DNA of 23,039 nt from positions 1 through 23,039 of the IMG/VR virus record IMGVR_UViG_3300030090_000244. One strand, written 5' to 3'. Below, piece after piece: positions 1 through 6,086 of this stretch. How positions within the stretch are numbered: position 1 is the stretch's first letter; every line of letters begins with the position of its first letter. This DNA is from a virus. The position numbers and the translations under genes were made by a program. The notes under the pieces are model-generated. The model saw only the letters and a list, made by a program, of their open reading frames with translations. It made no database searches and was not told the DNA's origin.

Positions 1-210
1 TACTTTGAAAAACATCAAGTTTGCTGTTCCGTTCTCTATCTCGTCAAGTTGCTCTCTAGCATACTCTGGATAATTACCTGATAGATTTCCCTGTAATGTG
101 TTTAGATGATACTGACGATAGTTTTCTGTAATAGTATCAGCATAAGTTTGAGTCCAATCTGCAACTCTTGTTTCTAGTGTTGGATTTTGTACTGTTTCTG
201 AAAAGGTCAT
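1..210 (-). CDS. Hypothetical phage protein, C-terminus beyond window
   Basis: The frame is open from an ATG at 210 to the window edge, so only the first 70 residues are visible. The protein begins MTFSETVQNPTLETRVADW and is polar, rich in Gln, Asn, Tyr and Glu, with no membrane segment or signal peptide. No family was recognised. It is the first gene behind a CCAT-box promoter at about 211-275. It has no Shine-Dalgarno sequence; its leader ends AAACAAACAACT before the ATG, as in the other genes headed by this promoter class. Expression early or in mid-infection is inferred only from that promoter. Confidence 0.7.
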   Translation of the reverse strand, partial: MTFSETVQNPTLETRVADWTQTYADTITENYRQYHLNTLQGNLSGNYPEYAREQLDEIENGTANLMFFKV

Positions 211-275
211 AGTTGTTTGTTTCTTATACTATTATAATAGTATAATATTATTTAAAATGGTAGTAAAAGTGGACA
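211..275 (-). promoter_or_regulatory. CCAT-box promoter, copy 1
   Basis: On the minus strand TACCAT (262-257) is followed after 17 nt by TATTAT (239-234), which overlaps a TATAAT (236-231), and then by GTATAAGAAACAAACAAC running to the ATG at 210. The upstream flank ACTTTTAC is identical in copy 2. The -10 lies inside a 22-bp perfect palindrome (224-245). No TTGACA-like -35 is present. The start site is inferred to lie about 15-20 nt before the ATG. Confidence 0.6.
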
Positions 276-295
276 GTAATAATAGTGGCACAATG

Positions 296-523
296 TCACT
301 TGAAAGCGGTCAATTTGTGTGGTCTATTATCTCCATATTCAATATCAGTAATACACCATCCCATAGTATCACTAATTTTGTCTAGCAAGTGATCTTCATC
401 ATAAGCGAACCATACACCCAAAGTATTGAGTATAATGTCTCTTTGATCTTCCTCTGGAATAGTTCCCTGACTATCCTCGAAATCAAAATTAATTGATTCA
501 ACTAAGTAAGATTTTAATTTCAT
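296..523 (-). CDS. Hypothetical small acidic protein (75 aa)
   Basis: The start at 523 is chosen because it forms an ATGA overlap with the stop of the upstream gene and has GGGGAG about 12 nt upstream; an in-frame ATG at 544 would overlap that gene by 25 nt. The protein starts MKLKSYLVESINFDFEDS and has a Trp-rich middle (LGVWFAYDED, TMGWCITDIEYG). It resembles in style the short soluble proteins of T4-like cyanophages, but no function is known to me. It is the last gene of a three- or four-gene operon started at copy 2 of the CCAT-box promoter; the next promoter cassette begins about 20 nt after its stop. Confidence 0.75.
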   Translation of the reverse strand: MKLKSYLVESINFDFEDSQGTIPEEDQRDIILNTLGVWFAYDEDHLLDKISDTMGWCITDIEYGDNRPHKLTAFK

Positions 524-858
524 AGGTATTCGATCTCCCCACATTCTACTGCTTCCATGTATTCACAAAATTCATTATGTGCTTTTTCTCTATCTTCTTG
601 CCATTGATTCCAACATAGTCTCCTATTAATGTCTAGCAACTTGCCAAGGTCAACACCTTCCATATCTGTCCAGTTACTGACATAATCAAGTTGACTCTCA
701 TCATATCCACCTGACTTAAGACTAGGTGCTGATAGAAATTCAAAGGCAATATCAATAAAGAAATGCCTACCAAAATGTTCTGACTCAATAGTTTGCATAG
801 GTTTAAACTCTAGAGTATCATCCTCACATTTTGATTTAAAAATGTATGTACTTGTCAT
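520..858 (-). CDS. Hypothetical protein (112 aa)
   Basis: The ATG at 858 gives an ATGA overlap with the upstream stop and has GGGAGGA about 10 nt before it; the longer start at 876 has neither. The soluble acidic protein begins MTSTYIFKSKCEDDTLEF and ends in a charged, probably helical stretch (WNQWQEDREKAHNEFCEYME) with four cysteines in the whole chain but no spaced metal motif. No family was recognised. It is translationally coupled on both sides, which argues for co-expression with the genes at 296 and 855. Confidence 0.8.
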   Translation of the reverse strand: MTSTYIFKSKCEDDTLEFKPMQTIESEHFGRHFFIDIAFEFLSAPSLKSGGYDESQLDYVSNWTDMEGVDLGKLLDINRRLCWNQWQEDREKAHNEFCEYMEAVECGEIEYL

Positions 859-1052
859 TGTAATGAATCCTCCCATTGTTGTAATACAAAATTTTCTCTA
901 GCAATTTCTGCTTCCTGTAAAGTGTCAAAAGTCTCATGTACTGAACCAGTATCGTCAAATACTTCCCAGTTACCAACACCATTGAAACAGGGACGTATAT
1001 CCCATGAGTCATTGATGCCTTCAAAAATAAGTTCGTTTTGTAATGTACTCAT
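855..1052 (-). CDS. Hypothetical protein (65 aa)
   Basis: The ATG at 1052 is preceded by a strong AGGAGG site. The protein reads MSTLQNELIFEGINDSWDIR at its start and continues with short beta-type stretches (WEVFDDTGSVHETFDTLQEA) ending in a helix. This layout of a small strand-turn-strand plus a helix is seen in many phage accessory proteins, but I cannot name a family. Its Shine-Dalgarno overlaps the stop of the 57-residue gene upstream. Confidence 0.8.
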   Translation of the reverse strand: MSTLQNELIFEGINDSWDIRPCFNGVGNWEVFDDTGSVHETFDTLQEAEIARENFVLQQWEDSLQ

Positions 1053-1061
1053 TGTATCCTC

Positions 1062-1235
1062 CTATTGAAATTTTGGGTCTGGTTTTACAACATCACTTCC
1101 TGAGTTGCATACAAGATCAAGTAATGAATCGAAATCATCCTGATCTATATCTCCACCAACACCGAGGTCATTGAAGTAGGATAGCATTGCTACAAGAACT
1201 GCATCCTGTTTGTCGTTTAGAGTGTAAGTGTTCAT
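1062..1235 (-). CDS. Hypothetical acidic mini-protein (57 aa)
   Basis: This short frame runs from ATG at 1235 to TAG at 1062-1064 and encodes MNTYTLNDKQDAVLVAMLSY, then an acidic stretch with GVGGDIDQDDFDSLLDLV. It is supported by its position directly after promoter copy 2, by filling an otherwise empty 180-bp gap, and by its stop lying against the Shine-Dalgarno of the next gene. It lacks its own Shine-Dalgarno and has the A-rich leader AACAAAAAACCACT. The predicted fold is helical. Function unknown. Confidence 0.75.
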   Translation of the reverse strand: MNTYTLNDKQDAVLVAMLSYFNDLGVGGDIDQDDFDSLLDLVCNSGSDVVKPDPKFQ

Positions 1236-1246
1236 AGTGGTTTTTT

Positions 1247-1302
1247 GTTTCTATAGTACTATTGTAAAGGATGATAATACCAAATGGTAGTAAAAGTAGA
1301 CA
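1247..1302 (-). promoter_or_regulatory. CCAT-box promoter, copy 2
   Basis: Minus strand: ACTTTTAC, TACCAT (1289-1284), 17 nt, TACAAT (1266-1261), then AGTACTATAGAAACAAAAAA leading to the ATG at 1235. The segment from ACTTTTAC through CCATTT is identical to copy 1. There is no sigma70-type -35. It should drive the 57-, 65-, 112- and 75-residue genes. Confidence 0.65.
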
Positions 1303-1323
1303 CTTTACCAGGTGGCACACAAC

Positions 1324-1548
1324 CTATTTCGCATAATCGTCTAGTGTGATACCTTTTTCATAACAATACTGAATTAATATACTATGAATCTCATCAGGCA
1401 TAAAATCCCAATCTCCCTTATTTTTGAGATCATCAGCAAGTATATCAACTTGAACATCATCTAATAATGGATAGAATGATTTAATAATCTGAGTCAGGTT
1501 AAACTCTATAAAAGTATCCTGATTTGTAATTACAACTTTCCGTTTCAT
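1324..1548 (-). CDS. Hypothetical protein (74 aa)
   Basis: ATG at 1548 overlaps the upstream stop as ATGA. The protein starts MKRKVVITNQDTFIEFNLTQ and continues with helical segments (IIKSFYPLLDDVQVDILADD, then EIHSILIQYCYEKGITLDDY). It is soluble and has no recognised motif. It is the last gene of the operon initiated at promoter copy 3. A GTGTGCCACC sequence follows a few bases after its stop, one of several GTGCCAC/GTGGCAC sites that flank the promoter cassettes. Confidence 0.75.
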   Translation of the reverse strand: MKRKVVITNQDTFIEFNLTQIIKSFYPLLDDVQVDILADDLKNKGDWDFMPDEIHSILIQYCYEKGITLDDYAK

Positions 1549-1757
1549 AAAATTTCAAGTTCAGTATAATCGTGGCAAGTAATTCTCTTGCCATTGTTGT
1601 TAATCAGGATAGTAAAGTTTTCTGTTGGGATAAATCCCTTACGATCTTTATCTCCCTTGATATAGTTGATAAGTACCTGATAATCCTTACCTCTATATCT
1701 GACATTATCAGATACACCGATATATTCTGGTTTTTTATATCTTTGGATAAATGTCAT
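1545..1757 (-). CDS. Hypothetical basic protein (70 aa)
   Basis: ATG at 1757 is fused to the upstream stop (TAATG) and has AGGAGG about 10 nt upstream. Unlike its acidic neighbours it is basic: MTFIQRYKKPEYIGVSDNVR, then YRGKDYQVLINYIKGDKDRK. The pattern of alternating hydrophobic residues suggests a small beta-barrel (SH3- or OB-like), which would fit a nucleic-acid-associated protein, but this is a guess from composition and strand pattern only. Confidence 0.75.
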   Translation of the reverse strand: MTFIQRYKKPEYIGVSDNVRYRGKDYQVLINYIKGDKDRKGFIPTENFTILINNNGKRITCHDYTELEIL

Positions 1758-1954
1758 TAGTATTTTCCTCCTGTATTATTGATGTCAATAAAGAGATCAT
1801 CCTTATCTGGGTATGGATACTGATTAGCAATTACATCCTGTAATTGTGTGAGTTGATTCTCATCTAATAAGTTAAACATCACATCAATTATATCATGTGC
1901 TGTACCATTGTCTCCTTCTTCAACAATGTCATGAATGTCATTTAAAAAAGTCAT
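1757..1954 (-). CDS. Hypothetical acidic helical protein (65 aa)
   Basis: ATG at 1954 (TAATG with the upstream stop) follows a GAGGAG ribosome site. The sequence MTFLNDIHDIVEEGDNGTAH and the following helical stretch (IIDVMFNLLDENQLTQLQDV) are strongly acidic and probably all-helical. Family not recognised. It is coupled on both sides. Confidence 0.75.
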   Translation of the reverse strand: MTFLNDIHDIVEEGDNGTAHDIIDVMFNLLDENQLTQLQDVIANQYPYPDKDDLFIDINNTGGKY

Positions 1955-2211
1955 TAGTTAGTCTCCTCGAATGATTCTCTTAGTGGTTTTTTGAAAGGTG
2001 TTTTCATGTAATCTTGAATCTCATCAACTACTTCGCCAAAACTATCTTCCCAATAGTTTTCTGCTTCATCAAGAAATTCTGCATCTGACATTTTCTCATA
2101 GTATCTGTCAAGATCGTCCATAACATATTGAACTAAATCTTTTGTTGACATATTATCAACATATCTCTCAACTAAAAATGATTTTAGTTCATTAATGATT
2201 GCTTTGTCCAT
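1954..2211 (-). CDS. Hypothetical acidic helical protein (85 aa)
   Basis: Starts at ATG 2211 (TAATG coupling) with GGAGG about 10 nt upstream in the end of the preceding gene. The protein begins MDKAIINELKSFLVERYVDN and has the repeated acidic/aromatic pattern DLDRYYEKMSDAEFLDEAEN. Its ELKSFLVE segment recalls the KLKSYLVE start of the 75-residue product at 296-523; whether they are related cannot be decided by eye. Function unknown. Confidence 0.75.
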   Translation of the reverse strand: MDKAIINELKSFLVERYVDNMSTKDLVQYVMDDLDRYYEKMSDAEFLDEAENYWEDSFGEVVDEIQDYMKTPFKKPLRESFEETN

Positions 2212-2378
2212 TAGAAAAATCCTCCGTTGACTTCTGCGTCTTGAATGTTCTCAAAGACTTGTATCTGCTCATCAGATAACTCAAAATCCATATCTCTGAG
2301 TAGGTCATATAGTTTTACCATGTGGTATAACTGATCTCCAGTAAGGTTTACTGGTAATGTTTCTGGAATTAAGTTCAT
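2211..2378 (-). CDS. Hypothetical small protein (55 aa)
   Basis: This frame runs from ATG at 2378 to TAA at 2211-2213. It encodes MNLIPETLPVNLTGDQLYHM, then a helix (VKLYDLLRDMDFELSDEQIQ), ending NGGFF. Exact stop-start contact with the genes on both sides (TAATCATG upstream, TAATG downstream) and the Shine-Dalgarno of the next gene inside its 3' end support it as a real gene. No family recognised. Confidence 0.75.
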   Translation of the reverse strand: MNLIPETLPVNLTGDQLYHMVKLYDLLRDMDFELSDEQIQVFENIQDAEVNGGFF

Positions 2379-2380
2379 GA

Positions 2381-2626
2381 TTAGACCTCGTAAAAGAAAT
2401 CGTCCTCACCACCAAAAGGTGATGCTTCATACTCTGTATCTGCATCTATGTTCTGTTTTAGATTGTCATCATAGATGCGAATAGATAACTCTCCGTTATC
2501 TGCCATGCCTACCCATCCCTTACGATCGAGTGCATTGTCAATAATGTCATATATTTTTAGGACTTCTTCATCATTGAGAAATCCACATATATTCCAGTAT
2601 TTTTGAGTTGTTAAATGGTTTGGCAT
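2381..2626 (-). CDS. Hypothetical protein (81 aa)
   Basis: First gene after promoter copy 3. The ATG at 2626 lacks a Shine-Dalgarno and has the leader ACAAACAACCATT. The product starts MPNHLTTQKYWNICGFLNDE, followed by helix (EVLKIYDIIDNALDRKGW) and an acidic C-terminus ending EDDFFYEV. Soluble, unknown family. It is followed after 2 nt by the 55-residue gene. Confidence 0.75.
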   Translation of the reverse strand: MPNHLTTQKYWNICGFLNDEEVLKIYDIIDNALDRKGWVGMADNGELSIRIYDDNLKQNIDADTEYEASPFGGEDDFFYEV

Positions 2627-2635
2627 AATGGTTGT

Positions 2636-2694
2636 TTGTCTATAGTATTATTGTAATGGATGGATAATTAAAATGGAAGTCACTTTGTGCCACT
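2636..2694 (-). promoter_or_regulatory. CCAT-box promoter, copy 3
   Basis: Minus strand: AGTGGCACAAAGTGAC, TTCCAT (2678-2673), 17 nt, TACAAT (2655-2650), then AATACTATAGACAAACAACC to the ATG at 2626. Spacing and initial-transcribed sequence match copies 1, 2 and 4. It should drive the six genes from 2626 down to 1324. Confidence 0.65.
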
Positions 2695-2704
2695 AATAAA
2701 ATTG

Positions 2705-2929
2705 TCATGCGGTGTTCTCATTCCATACAAAATTTGTTATATCCTGTTGTCTAGCATCCGCCTGACCTGTATTCTCCTCTAAGAAAAATGTCCTATGGAA
2801 TACTTCATAATCAGCATAATCCCACTCGACTCCTTCAAAGTATGGGTCTTTAATCCATGCTTCAACTTCTTCTTTAGTTTTGAAGTCAATAGTGCCTGTG
2901 TTGTTTTCGTGAATTGTAATTCTGTACAT
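2705..2929 (-). CDS. Hypothetical acidic protein (74 aa)
   Basis: ATG at 2929 abuts the upstream TAA directly and has GGAGTGG as ribosome site. The protein opens with a short strand MYRITIHENNTGTIDF, then KTKEEVEAWIKDPYFEGVEW and an aromatic, acidic tail. The start resembles small single-domain proteins with a beta-alpha unit. No function assigned. It is the last gene of the promoter-copy-4 operon. Confidence 0.75.
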   Translation of the reverse strand: MYRITIHENNTGTIDFKTKEEVEAWIKDPYFEGVEWDYADYEVFHRTFFLEENTGQADARQQDITNFVWNENTA

Positions 2930-3139
2930 TTACCACTCCATAGTAGGTTGTTTGCTTTGTGCTTTTTCTATCTTAGCATAATGTTTATCAATAACACCTT
3001 CTAAGATTTCAAAAATGTCGTCAACTTCATTGCAAAGTTGTTCATCATCATTGCCTTGAACATATCCTTCAAGTACATAGAGAATAGTACTGATATGTCC
3101 CTCTGTAAGATTGACATTGTGTAATGTGTTTAATGACAT
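2930..3139 (-). CDS. Hypothetical acidic helical protein (69 aa)
   Basis: The ATG at 3139 (MSLNTLHNVNLTEGHISTIL) is preferred over an in-frame TTG at 3148 because it sits just after the upstream stop and has GGAG upstream. The rest is helical and acidic (VLEGYVQGNDDEQLCNEVDD). No recognised family. Its stop codon directly touches the next start. Confidence 0.7.
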   Translation of the reverse strand: MSLNTLHNVNLTEGHISTILYVLEGYVQGNDDEQLCNEVDDIFEILEGVIDKHYAKIEKAQSKQPTMEW

Positions 3140-3141
3140 GA

Positions 3142-3327
3142 CTACCAATCTCCGTTAGAGTCAGCAAAGACATCTTCATTCCAATGCTCTGTCTTGTCTA
3201 GGATACCGCAATGTCTCATAATGCCATCATAGATTTCCATCCCTGATCTTGACATTCTTCCTGCTGTGTAATCCCAACCTAATTCTGTTAGGTTGTCGAT
3301 AATAAAATTGAGTGATACTTTTTTCAT
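3142..3327 (-). CDS. Hypothetical protein (61 aa)
   Basis: ATG at 3327 follows the stop of the 52-residue gene by 2 nt (TAATCATG). The product MKKVSLNFIIDNLTELGWDY continues with TAGRMSRSGMEIYDGIMRHC. It has an unremarkable mixed composition and no motif I recognise. No clear Shine-Dalgarno, so translational coupling with the gene upstream is likely. Confidence 0.7.
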   Translation of the reverse strand: MKKVSLNFIIDNLTELGWDYTAGRMSRSGMEIYDGIMRHCGILDKTEHWNEDVFADSNGDW

Positions 3328-3329
3328 GA

Positions 3330-3488
3330 TTATTTGAAGTTGAGTGATTTAACTGGATTGTCTGTGCCTGTAAATGCTATCTGAAGAATAGTCTCTGCTA
3401 AGTCTCTCTGGTCAGTAGTCATTTTGAACTCATAATAATCGAAAGCATCTTTGATGAGATCATAAGATTGTCTGTCAAGTTTGGTCAT
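3330..3488 (-). CDS. Hypothetical small protein (52 aa)
   Basis: Short frame from ATG at 3488 to TAA at 3330-3332: MTKLDRQSYDLIKDAFDYYE, then FKMTTDQRDLAETILQIAFT. It is the first gene after promoter copy 4, with an A-rich leader (AAACCAAAAAATCAAC) and no Shine-Dalgarno. Probably two helices. The position directly behind the promoter and tight linkage to the next gene are the main support. Confidence 0.75.
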   Translation of the reverse strand: MTKLDRQSYDLIKDAFDYYEFKMTTDQRDLAETILQIAFTGTDNPVKSLNFK

Positions 3489-3500
3489 GTTGATTTTTTG

Positions 3501-3556
3501 GTTTCTATACTATTATAATAGTGTATGTTATACCACTATGGGGAAATAGTGTGCCA
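3501..3556 (-). promoter_or_regulatory. CCAT-box promoter, copy 4
   Basis: Minus strand: AGTGGCACACTATTT, CCCCAT (3543-3538), 17 nt, TATTAT (3520-3515, overlapping TATAAT 3517-3512), then AATAGTATAGAAACCAAAAA. A 14-bp perfect palindrome (3509-3522) is centred on the -10, as in copy 1. It drives the genes from 3488 down to 2705. Confidence 0.6.
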
Positions 3557-3576
3557 CTAAAATACCTGGCACACTA
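3547..3576. repeat. Perfect 10-bp inverted repeat at the helicase stop
   Basis: tagtgtgcca (3547-3556) and tggcacacta (3567-3576) are perfect complements separated by 10 nt. The right arm contains the TAG stop of the helicase gene. In minus-strand RNA it would form a hairpin just after translation ends, but there is no long U-tract, so it is either a weak terminator, an mRNA 3'-end stabiliser, or a protein-binding site for promoter copy 4. Confidence 0.7.
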
Positions 3577-4848
3577 GACATATGATAGAGGTGGGATGCC
3601 CTCTATAAAGATATAGTCAACTACATCCTGTATTCTCTTAGCAATTCTCTCAGAATACTTACCAGATAGAGGAACACACACCTTACCATAAGGTTTATGG
3701 TATAACTCAAATGCACCTACTGGAACTCTGCCCTCTGACATTGCTAGTCTGTCCTTAGGGTGTATCCTGATGACTCTACCAATAGTTTGTGCCATTTCGA
3801 TTGTAGGTAGATTTCTCAACATGATTGTATGAGTAAGACCTGCTACATTGATACCTTCAGATAATATAGAGTAATGGAATATGATAAACTTCTTGTTCTC
3901 ATCCTTACCATATTCTGTAAGAGTATTGAAAAACTCTTCTCTACCAACTTTCTGTCCATTGATGTTAGCACCATACTTAGAGGTAATATGTAATACCTCG
4001 AATCCCTGCATGTATAACCAAGCAAGTGTATCAGTTCTTGTAAGAATACCATAGATGTTAGCAGTTGATTGTCCTGCTACTAGAATCTTAGGATTGATGA
4101 CATTCATGTCCTCGATCATATCTTTTAGATTGTCAGCATCAACTTCAACAGCATTGTATCTGTCTCTTACTCTGTCTGTTTTAAATGGTATTACTTCGGG
4201 TGGTAATATAGAACCACCATCAATAAGTTCCTGTGCAGTTGTTTGCTCTAATACTGAACCATATACCTTACGATTGCACATCCCTCTAACTCCGTTTGCA
4301 CTCTTCTTACCTCTGGATACTTTAGGTGTAGCAGTAAAGAAAAACTTACGAGTTCTGGGTCTGTGTGATAGTTGCTCAATAGGAATAAAGAAGTTCTTAG
4401 CAGTTCCATTGTGTGCTTCATCAAAATAGATTGTATCAATTAAGATACCACTCTCTACCACTCTGTGTAATGAATGATATGTAGTGAAGATGATACGATT
4501 CTCTCCTGTCTGCATCACATTGTTTTGCCATCTAACAATATGATCTGTCTTAAGTGTACTATCGTAGATTGTCTCTCCACTATGTACATGTAAACACTCT
4601 ATTGAAAGATTATGCTTACCATCTAAGTTCTGCTCAAAAAATTCTGAACATAATTGATTTGCCAATAATATGCGAGGAGCAACAACAACAATAGTCTGGT
4701 CTGACTTGTTTGATAGTTCTCTGATTATATCAGCGATCATGACGAATGTTTTACCACCGCCAGTAGGAATAATAATTTGACCATGACCAGTAGTTGCCAT
4801 TGAGTTGTATGCTCTGGTCTGATGTGGTCTTAATAAATCTGAGAACAT
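3574..4848 (-). CDS. SF2 (DEAH-type) DNA helicase
   Basis: ATP-dependent nucleic-acid helicase/translocase of superfamily 2, probably acting on phage DNA in replication, recombination or repair. Visible motifs in order: RPHQTRA (7-13, Q-motif position), PTGGGKT (28-34, Walker A), VVVAPRILLANQ (54-65, motif Ia), FDEAHNG (142-148, Walker B), FFTATP (170-175, motif III), and QTIGRVIR (354-361, motif VI with arginine finger). At 424 residues it starts almost at the Q motif and so lacks the roughly 100-residue N-terminal domain of T4 UvsW; the closest general match is the COG1061/type III Res-like group. The ATG at 4848 has no Shine-Dalgarno and a short leader from the promoter at 4867-4897. It is transcribed alone, between a terminator and the inverted repeat at its stop. 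Exact biological role is inferred. Confidence 0.92.
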   Translation of the reverse strand: MFSDLLRPHQTRAYNSMATTGHGQIIIPTGGGKTFVMIADIIRELSNKSDQTIVVVAPRILLANQLCSEFFEQNLDGKHNLSIECLHVHSGETIYDSTLKTDHIVRWQNNVMQTGENRIIFTTYHSLHRVVESGILIDTIYFDEAHNGTAKNFFIPIEQLSHRPRTRKFFFTATPKVSRGKKSANGVRGMCNRKVYGSVLEQTTAQELIDGGSILPPEVIPFKTDRVRDRYNAVEVDADNLKDMIEDMNVINPKILVAGQSTANIYGILTRTDTLAWLYMQGFEVLHITSKYGANINGQKVGREEFFNTLTEYGKDENKKFIIFHYSILSEGINVAGLTHTIMLRNLPTIEMAQTIGRVIRIHPKDRLAMSEGRVPVGAFELYHKPYGKVCVPLSGKYSERIAKRIQDVVDYIFIEGIPPLSYV

Positions 4849-4904: not shown

Positions 4905-5127
4905 GTAAACCACTTAACCAACTGTCCACTATGGAAACTACCACCTATAGAATAACCAGTTCTATAGACGAGAGGAAACAAAACTAGATCAAATACTTAA
5001 GTTCGACTTAAATGCGTGTTGCTGAGTGGTTTCAACTGCTAGTTGAATCTGCTTAGTCATCCTAATGACTTCACTTTAGGTATCCGCAACCTTGAAAGTT
5101 TTACATTGATCGGGTTTGTTTCCCCAC
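4905..5127 (-). ncRNA. Candidate structured non-coding RNA between methyltransferase and helicase
   Basis: This 225-nt stretch holds no convincing gene but is densely self-complementary. Pairings seen: GGAAACAAA (5123-5115) with TTTGTTTCC (4982-4974), 9 bp, enclosing GATC/GATC (5111-5108 with 4990-4987); GTTGC (5090-5086) with GCAAC (5022-5018), enclosing two hairpins, AGTCAT/ATGACT (5070-5055, 4-nt loop) and TTCAACT/AGTTGAA (5047-5031, 3-nt loop); TTAAGT/ACTTAA (5011-4997); and CTATAGAA/TTCTATAG (4967-4945, 7-nt loop). The RNA would end at the 4879-4904 terminator. An extended -10-like TGTTATATT (5140-5132) could start it at GTGGGG near 5127, but no -35 is visible, so it may instead be the 3' UTR of the methyltransferase mRNA. 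It does not match tRNA, tmRNA or riboswitch consensus that I can recall. Confidence 0.5.
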
Positions 5128-5129
5128 TA

Positions 5130-6086
5130 TTAATATAACAGGTCTGCGAGAGGATTAGTGGTGTCTTGTGCAACTTCTTCAACTGGCACACGTTGGTCTA
5201 TCAAATTACCATATTCTTCATGCAACTCACATCCGATATAATCTCTACCTAAATGCTTTGCAACCATAGCAGTAGTTCCTGATCCCATGAATGGATCAAG
5301 AATTATATCTCCCTTCTCACTCCCTGCCAGTATGCAAGGTGTAATTAAGTCAGGTGGAAAAACAGCGAAGTGACTTCCCTTGAATGGTTTATTTGTTACC
5401 GACCAAACATCACGTTTATTTTTCCTGTCATAAGACTTGGATAAACCACTATGAGGAGATAACCCACTGCCACTATTATGGTACTTACCCTTAGTGCGAT
5501 CTCTTGTCCCCCAATCTTGCTTAACTGGTTCTTTGATTGCTTCATTGTCATAATAATACTTTTTGTTTTTAGATAATAAAAATATGTACTCATGTGATTT
5601 AGTACATCTATCCCTTACCGATTCTGGCATTGGATTAGGTTTATGCCAGATAATATCCTGACGTAGATACCATCCGTCCGATCTCATTGCAAATGCAAAC
5701 ATCCAAGGGATGCCAATTAAATCTTTTTCTTTTAATCCATCTAATTTATTACCACGTTTATTACATTGAGTTGGTAGGTCTTGATTAGTTTTAGATACTG
5801 ATTGTTTAGGATATGATTGACCTTTTCCTGGTCTATAATTATAATAACTATCTCCTAAGTTAACCCATAGAGTACCATCATCAGTTAATACATTTCTAAC
5901 TTCTTTGAATACACTTACCAGTTGATCTATAAACTCTTCTGGTGTATTCTCTTGTCCTATTTGATTCTCCTCTCCTCCATAGTCTCTTAATCCGTAGTAT
6001 GGTGGCGAAGTCACACAAGTTCTTGCCTGTTCATCAAATTGTTTGAGAGTGTCTCTGCAATCTCCGTATAAAATTGTGTTTCTCAT
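5130..6086 (-). CDS. Beta-class DNA methyltransferase (TSPPY type)
   Basis: S-adenosylmethionine-dependent amino-methyltransferase (N4-cytosine or N6-adenine). The catalytic motif IV TSPPYYGL (26-33) precedes the AdoMet-binding motif I LDPFMGSGTT (263-272), the order that defines the beta class; GDSYY and a DIIWHKPNPMPES stretch are also typical of this family. TSPPY is common in N4-cytosine enzymes, DPPY in adenine enzymes, so cytosine is slightly favoured. At 318 residues it is a complete stand-alone enzyme with a variable target-recognition region between about 85 and 240. It overlaps the upstream dam-like gene by ATGA. Its likely role is phage DNA self-modification against host restriction, or part of a modification system with the nuclease two genes upstream. 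Confidence 0.92.
   Translation of the reverse strand: MRNTILYGDCRDTLKQFDEQARTCVTSPPYYGLRDYGGEENQIGQENTPEEFIDQLVSVFKEVRNVLTDDGTLWVNLGDSYYNYRPGKGQSYPKQSVSKTNQDLPTQCNKRGNKLDGLKEKDLIGIPWMFAFAMRSDGWYLRQDIIWHKPNPMPESVRDRCTKSHEYIFLLSKNKKYYYDNEAIKEPVKQDWGTRDRTKGKYHNSGSGLSPHSGLSKSYDRKNKRDVWSVTNKPFKGSHFAVFPPDLITPCILAGSEKGDIILDPFMGSGTTAMVAKHLGRDYIGCELHEEYGNLIDQRVPVEEVAQDTTNPLADLLY

Follow-up and report, generated by a model that had tools for sequence, protein, structure and literature searches.

Cyanomyoviruses lack the T4 polymerase modifiers, motA, and asiA (PMC2984593), and how a marine T4-like cyanophage without alt, modA, motA, and asiA starts its program is therefore a question. It is raised here by a 23-kb stretch of viral DNA (IMG/VR record IMGVR_UViG_3300030090_000244, positions 1 to 23,039; hereafter, the window). 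This fragment comes from a T4-like phage of Prochlorococcus and shows 90 to 94% identity to P-SSM3, P-SSM4, and P-RSM3, the first two of which belong to the genus Ronodorvirus. Small open reading frames (ORFs) of unknown function fill positions 1 to 3556 of the minus strand and adjoin a helicase gene (3574 to 4848, minus strand).

Probable promoter sites in the window

A preliminary description of the window had placed four CCAT sites at 262 to 234, 1289 to 1261, 2678 to 2650, and 3543 to 3515, and all four were found on the minus strand. At each, CCAT is separated by exactly 17 nt from a TATTAT or TACAAT hexamer, which is followed by RTASTATA and, 3′ of this, by an AAACAAA-like leader. In the window, we counted 5 instances of CCAT-N17-TAYWAT where 0.9 would be expected and 4 of the pattern together with RTASTATA, against 0.0 (order-1 Markov shuffles). 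The fifth exact match (CCAT-N17-TATAAT, 410 to 436, plus strand) lies inside an ORF without the other parts of the module, and we took it as chance. The ORF that follows each of the four sites is the first of an operon-like run, and its start codon begins 24 to 27 nt past the end of the −10 box. The proteins encoded 3′ of these sites fall into phage families without known function. The four sites are very likely genuine marine cyanophage promoters.

A two-part element upstream of the −10 box

Alignment of the window sites with sites from P-SSM3 and P-SSM4 showed that conservation extends far 5′ of CCAT. The common core is a quasi-palindrome of 22 bp, TGNCAST-N6-ASTGNCACA (22 to 24 bp when written as TGTGNCAST-N6-ASTGNCACA), at about −63 to −42, and its distance to the −10 box is 29 bp (±1), with values of 29, 29, 30, and 29 bp at window sites 1 to 4. 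In promoter 1, the element (TGCCACTATTATTACTGTCCAC) occupies positions 269 to 290, the CCAT box, lineage specific and at the −35 position, 257 to 260, and the −10 box TATTAT 234 to 239, with the ATG of the ORF at 210 (minus strand, as for all promoters of the window given here). Promoter 2 has its element (TGCCACCTGGTAAAGTGTCTAC) at 1296 to 1317, CCAT at 1284 to 1287, and TACAAT at 1261 to 1266, ahead of the ORF 1062 to 1235, which starts at 1235. In promoter 3, the element (TGACAATTTTATTAGTGGCACA) at 2686 to 2707, CCAT at 2673 to 2676, and TACAAT at 2650 to 2655 lead a run of ORFs from 2381 to 2626 through 1324 to 1548. Promoter 4 (element TGCCAGGTATTTTAGTGGCACA, 3550 to 3571; CCAT, 3538 to 3541; TATTAT, 3515 to 3520) leads the ORFs 3330 to 3488, 3142 to 3327, 2930 to 3148, and 2705 to 2929, and its element lies within a perfect 8-bp inverted repeat, GTGTGCCA/TGGCACAC. 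The right half of the element has diverged at window sites 1 and 2 and, as TGTCCAC, in several Ronodorvirus copies.

The preliminary description gave the four sites correctly but missed this conserved upstream element and, with it, a fifth promoter at 5188 to 5132 that has no CCAT. There, the element (TGCCAGTTGAAGAAGTTGCACA, 5167 to 5188; equivalent site, P-SSM4 43130) precedes a TATATT −10 box (5132 to 5137), 5′ of a stretch without ORFs and the helicase gene.

The layout of the class also includes a TATAAT-like −10 box, no consistent −35 box, a predicted purine start, and an A-rich leader of ∼15 to 20 nt that usually runs to a start codon. In a set of 154 distinct sites, those from IMG/VR were chosen by pattern, a choice that by itself fixes the columns covered by the pattern. 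The free columns were conserved as well: TG at −65/−64, 5′ of the left box; T and A beside the inner spacer; and C at −13. The +1 predicted from the sequence was A or G (77 and 22%, respectively) in 99% of the 154 sites, followed by T at +2 and A-rich sequence up to +12, and the first ATG or GTG mostly lay 21 to 28 nt past the −10 box. Of 81 strong sites, 65 run into an ORF of at least 35 amino acids, compared with 28% for random positions.

The two S positions of the element, −58 and −49, are associated as G..G or C..C (75 and 45 sites versus 21 and 13; Fisher P, about 1e−11). CAGT-N6-AGTG and CACT-N6-ACTG are reverse complements of each other, so the element is polar and is used in both orientations. 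In P-SSM2, a single element (66591 to 66614) appears to serve two divergent promoters, at 66561 (minus strand) and 66644 (plus strand), both of which score highly.

We also observed a GC-rich hairpin nested in the 29-bp spacer between the element and the −10 box of many sites (for instance, P-SSM4 1916 to 1944), with a similar arrangement in the window at 4905 to 4865 (minus strand). A perfect spacer stem of at least 5 bp was found in 25% of the 154 sites, compared with 3% after shuffling, and a stem together with at least four T residues, resembling an intrinsic terminator, in 8%, compared with 0%. At such sites, an operon may have a promoter into which the terminator of the preceding operon is folded.

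Distribution of the module

A Ronodorvirus matrix was built from 15 sites in the window, P-SSM3, and P-SSM4. The window sites, which are themselves part of the matrix, scored 45 to 73 bits, compared with a null maximum of ∼7 for the window; in genomes outside the training set, scores reached 42 bits in P-RSM4 (null maximum, 6.4) and 34 bits in P-TIM40 (null maximum, 5.6). Counted on both strands, the element was found 3 to 13 times per genome in eight cyanomyoviruses, against 0.0 in shuffles, and its distance to the −10 box peaked sharply, with 22 cases at 29 bp and 5 at 30 bp. When up to three mismatches were allowed over the element plus the −10 box, the module was present in all eight marine T4-like cyanophages (3 copies in Syn9 and 4 to 18 in the others, both strands) and absent from all five outgroups (S-TIM5, P-SSP7, HTVC008M, Ma-LMM01, and T4). 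Reversed-pattern controls gave no matches at this threshold. Few clear sites were found in Syn9, whose early genes may use further variants.

An exact-pattern scan of IMG/VR found the module in at least 120 stretches, whereas only eight stretches carried it among 84,980 species genomes. By blast, seven of these eight belong with cyanophages, and their assemblies bear the names Nonlabens, Flavobacteriales, and Gammaproteobacteria; the remaining one, from a Ferruginibacter MAG, was not placed. None of the eight came from an assembly titled as a cyanobacterium. With its bacterial matches being so largely cyanophage-like and none titled cyanobacterium, a host regulon was rejected. One of the contigs, NZ_RMVE01000006.1 (188 kb, filed under Nonlabens xiamenensis), is 98 to 99% identical to P-TIM40 over the 16 kb examined and appears to be phage DNA that contaminates a bacterial assembly.

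Standing of the CCAT box

The preliminary description saw a promoter class defined by CCAT. The class itself stands, as a repeated promoter of neither the MotA nor the late type, but CCAT does not define it. One could read CCAT, at −33, as a box recognized by a phage activator or an altered sigma factor, in the manner of a MotA box, with the upstream sequence incidental. The exact 17-nt spacing in all four window copies speaks for this, as does the presence of CCAT in six P-SSM4 promoters and in 6 of 15 strong P-RSM4 matches. However, in the genome-wide search for CCAT-N17-TAYWAT that had been suggested, the clear excess in the window faded in related phages, to near shuffle expectation in P-HM2, S-PM2, and P-SSM2 and to mildly above it elsewhere. 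These same phages carry the upstream element at an equal distance from the −10 box without CCAT, and even Ronodorvirus has promoters of the class that lack it (window 5137 and P-SSM4 51406). We therefore regard a recognition box at CCAT as improbable and rejected CCAT, near chance in most cyanomyoviruses, as the class-defining box. Elsewhere, the −35 position holds CACTACC in P-TIM40 and GTTGA in many sites. CCAT is best taken as a lineage variant at the −35 position, which it fills in many Ronodorvirus promoters and several of P-RSM4, the phages to which its role as a promoter mark is mainly confined; it may contact sigma region 4, or it may be a relic of shared descent.

Proposed mechanism

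We consider it quite probable that all these sites belong to a single class of promoters in marine T4-like cyanophages, probably early, at which host RNA polymerase works with a dimeric activator. The preliminary description had also named an activator as one possibility, and host RNA polymerase acting with one likewise seems probable to us. The putative dimeric activator would occupy the element, centered at about −53 and adjoining the polymerase, and would recruit the polymerase of the host, carrying the main sigma factor, to a promoter that has only a −10 box. Promoters without a −35 box are ordinary in marine cyanobacteria, the hosts here (PMC3219970), and the features of such −10-only promoters were found here, namely, a TATAAT-like −10 box at all sites and a predicted purine start about 7 nt downstream at 99% of the 154 sites. 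The probable time of use would be the onset of infection, when small genes for host takeover would be expressed; early timing is the most likely on the basis of gene content and of the novel early-gene element that Doron et al. 2016 reportedly described.

The putative activator could be delivered by the phage or encoded by the host. The exact module is absent from bacterial chromosomes, and the module is absent from S-TIM5 and P-SSP7, which are phages of marine Synechococcus and Prochlorococcus; this lineage-restricted distribution fits a phage-encoded factor better than a host factor. A more specific version is possible, though we hold it with considerable doubt: a virion-carried dimeric activator of an undescribed kind, binding the polar 24-bp element either way, might switch host polymerase to phage-only −10 promoters, sometimes arranged as divergent pairs. 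A regulator co-occurring with the motif, another suggestion of the preliminary description, was sought with mixed results. The phrog_385 “transcriptional regulator” is found in all eight positive phages but also in HTVC008M, which has no element, and it was rejected as the activator by co-occurrence. DUF1825 tracks the element exactly (8 of 8 phages with it versus 0 of 5 without it, among 13 phages) but is only a weak lead, because many cyanophage core genes would track the element equally.

The element might instead be an operator through which a repressor shuts the promoters off later. Activator and repressor sites look alike in sequence, and the presence of phrog_385 in the eight positive phages speaks for this reading, but its occurrence in HTVC008M counts against it. 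Moreover, the element, at −63 to −42, lies entirely 5′ of the core of the polymerase footprint, at a distance typical of an activator, the spacing is fixed, and a −35 box is missing, so we think a repressor site unlikely. There is even less to be said for ordinary host-type sigma-70 promoters that resemble one another through recent copying within the phage. The −10 boxes are indeed host-like and the copies share one gene cluster, but the four window copies are only 44 to 62% identical in pairwise comparison and nonetheless keep the element and its spacing, and identical architecture recurs in distant genera; we judge recent copying very unlikely. Finally, it is hardly credible that the palindrome acts in RNA, as a hairpin or an intrinsic terminator for the preceding operon, and is no protein site: promoter 4 could fold an 8-bp stem and some sites do have a terminator-like hairpin, though in the spacer and outside the element, but the reading was rejected by the anti-covariation of −58 and −49 (34 Watson-Crick pairs versus 74 expected), and the distance to the −10 box is fixed, with no T run 3′ of the element.

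With the class defined by two TGNCA boxes, 29 bp to the −10 box, and a predicted start with its leader, early operons can be called in any cyanophage contig, and the conserved part of the promoter can be told apart from lineage decoration, such as CCAT. The element can also act as a bait in a search for the putative activator.

A structured RNA beside the fifth promoter

Directly 3′ of the fifth promoter, we observed a structured RNA at 5126 to 4970 (minus strand), with copies at P-SSM4 43219, P-SSM3 123782, P-RSM4 41536, and P-HM2 41484 and in 48 IMG/VR stretches. Its invariant strands, AARACUUUCAAGGU and UUUAAGUCGAACUUAAG, are linked by a covarying 4-bp helix that is paired in all 31 distinct copies. 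Each position of this helix shows two to four types of base pair, and the core is enclosed by an outer helix whose sequence varies. No Rfam family matched it at the gathering score. It looks like an undescribed cyanophage riboswitch, ribozyme, or leader RNA. In Ronodorvirus, the covarying helix holds an insert of ∼75 nt (window 5019 to 5095, minus strand), compared with a loop of about 6 to 23 nt in other phages, and the insert contains a possible ORF of 23 codons (ATGACTAAGCAG...).

Comparison with known systems

Like the T4 MotA middle promoter, the class combines an activator box with a −10 box and has no TTGACA −35 box; it differs in that the element is longer and centered near −53, compared with near −30 for the MotA box. 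The preliminary description was right that its four sites have neither a TTGACA-type −35 box nor a MotA box. Neither TTGAC(A) nor a standard sigma-70 −35 box (TTGACA with a ∼17-bp spacer) was found in any of them, and the MotA box WWTGCTTYA near −30 was found in none of the four or of the 154 sites; TTGACA was present in 10 of the 154. The late promoter motif of T4-like phages (gp55), NATAAATA, was likewise absent from the four window sites and the 154 sites. Class I and II sites of CRP and NtcA resemble the element in being dyads 5′ of the −10 box, but TGTGA-N6-TCACA and GTA-N8-TAC both differ from it in the sequence of the half-sites and in their spacing. Neither pattern occurred in the four window sites, and among the 154 sites, the NtcA pattern occurred in 4 and the CRP pattern in 0.

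The preliminary description called the class unknown, but it has probably been reported before, in one or both of two forms. The Syn9 genome paper, as relayed in PMC2984593, reported a putative middle promoter that P-SSM4 and Syn9 possess and that P-SSM2 and S-PM2 lack. Compared by description, that promoter is likewise a non-MotA motif in the same phages, whereas the element here, as set against the relayed account, is present in P-SSM2 and S-PM2.

The second form is an element that Doron et al. 2016 reportedly assigned to early genes; we found no open paper that quotes the sequence of its motif. That study reportedly showed a novel regulatory element that controls the early genes of Syn9 and P-TIM40 and is conserved among T4-like cyanophages, with middle genes said to be driven by host-like promoters. 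Syn9 and P-TIM40 also carry the element described here, which is widespread among viral contigs from metagenomes. It is probably the same element, matched by description and not by sequence, and the promoters of the window most probably belong to an already reported class.
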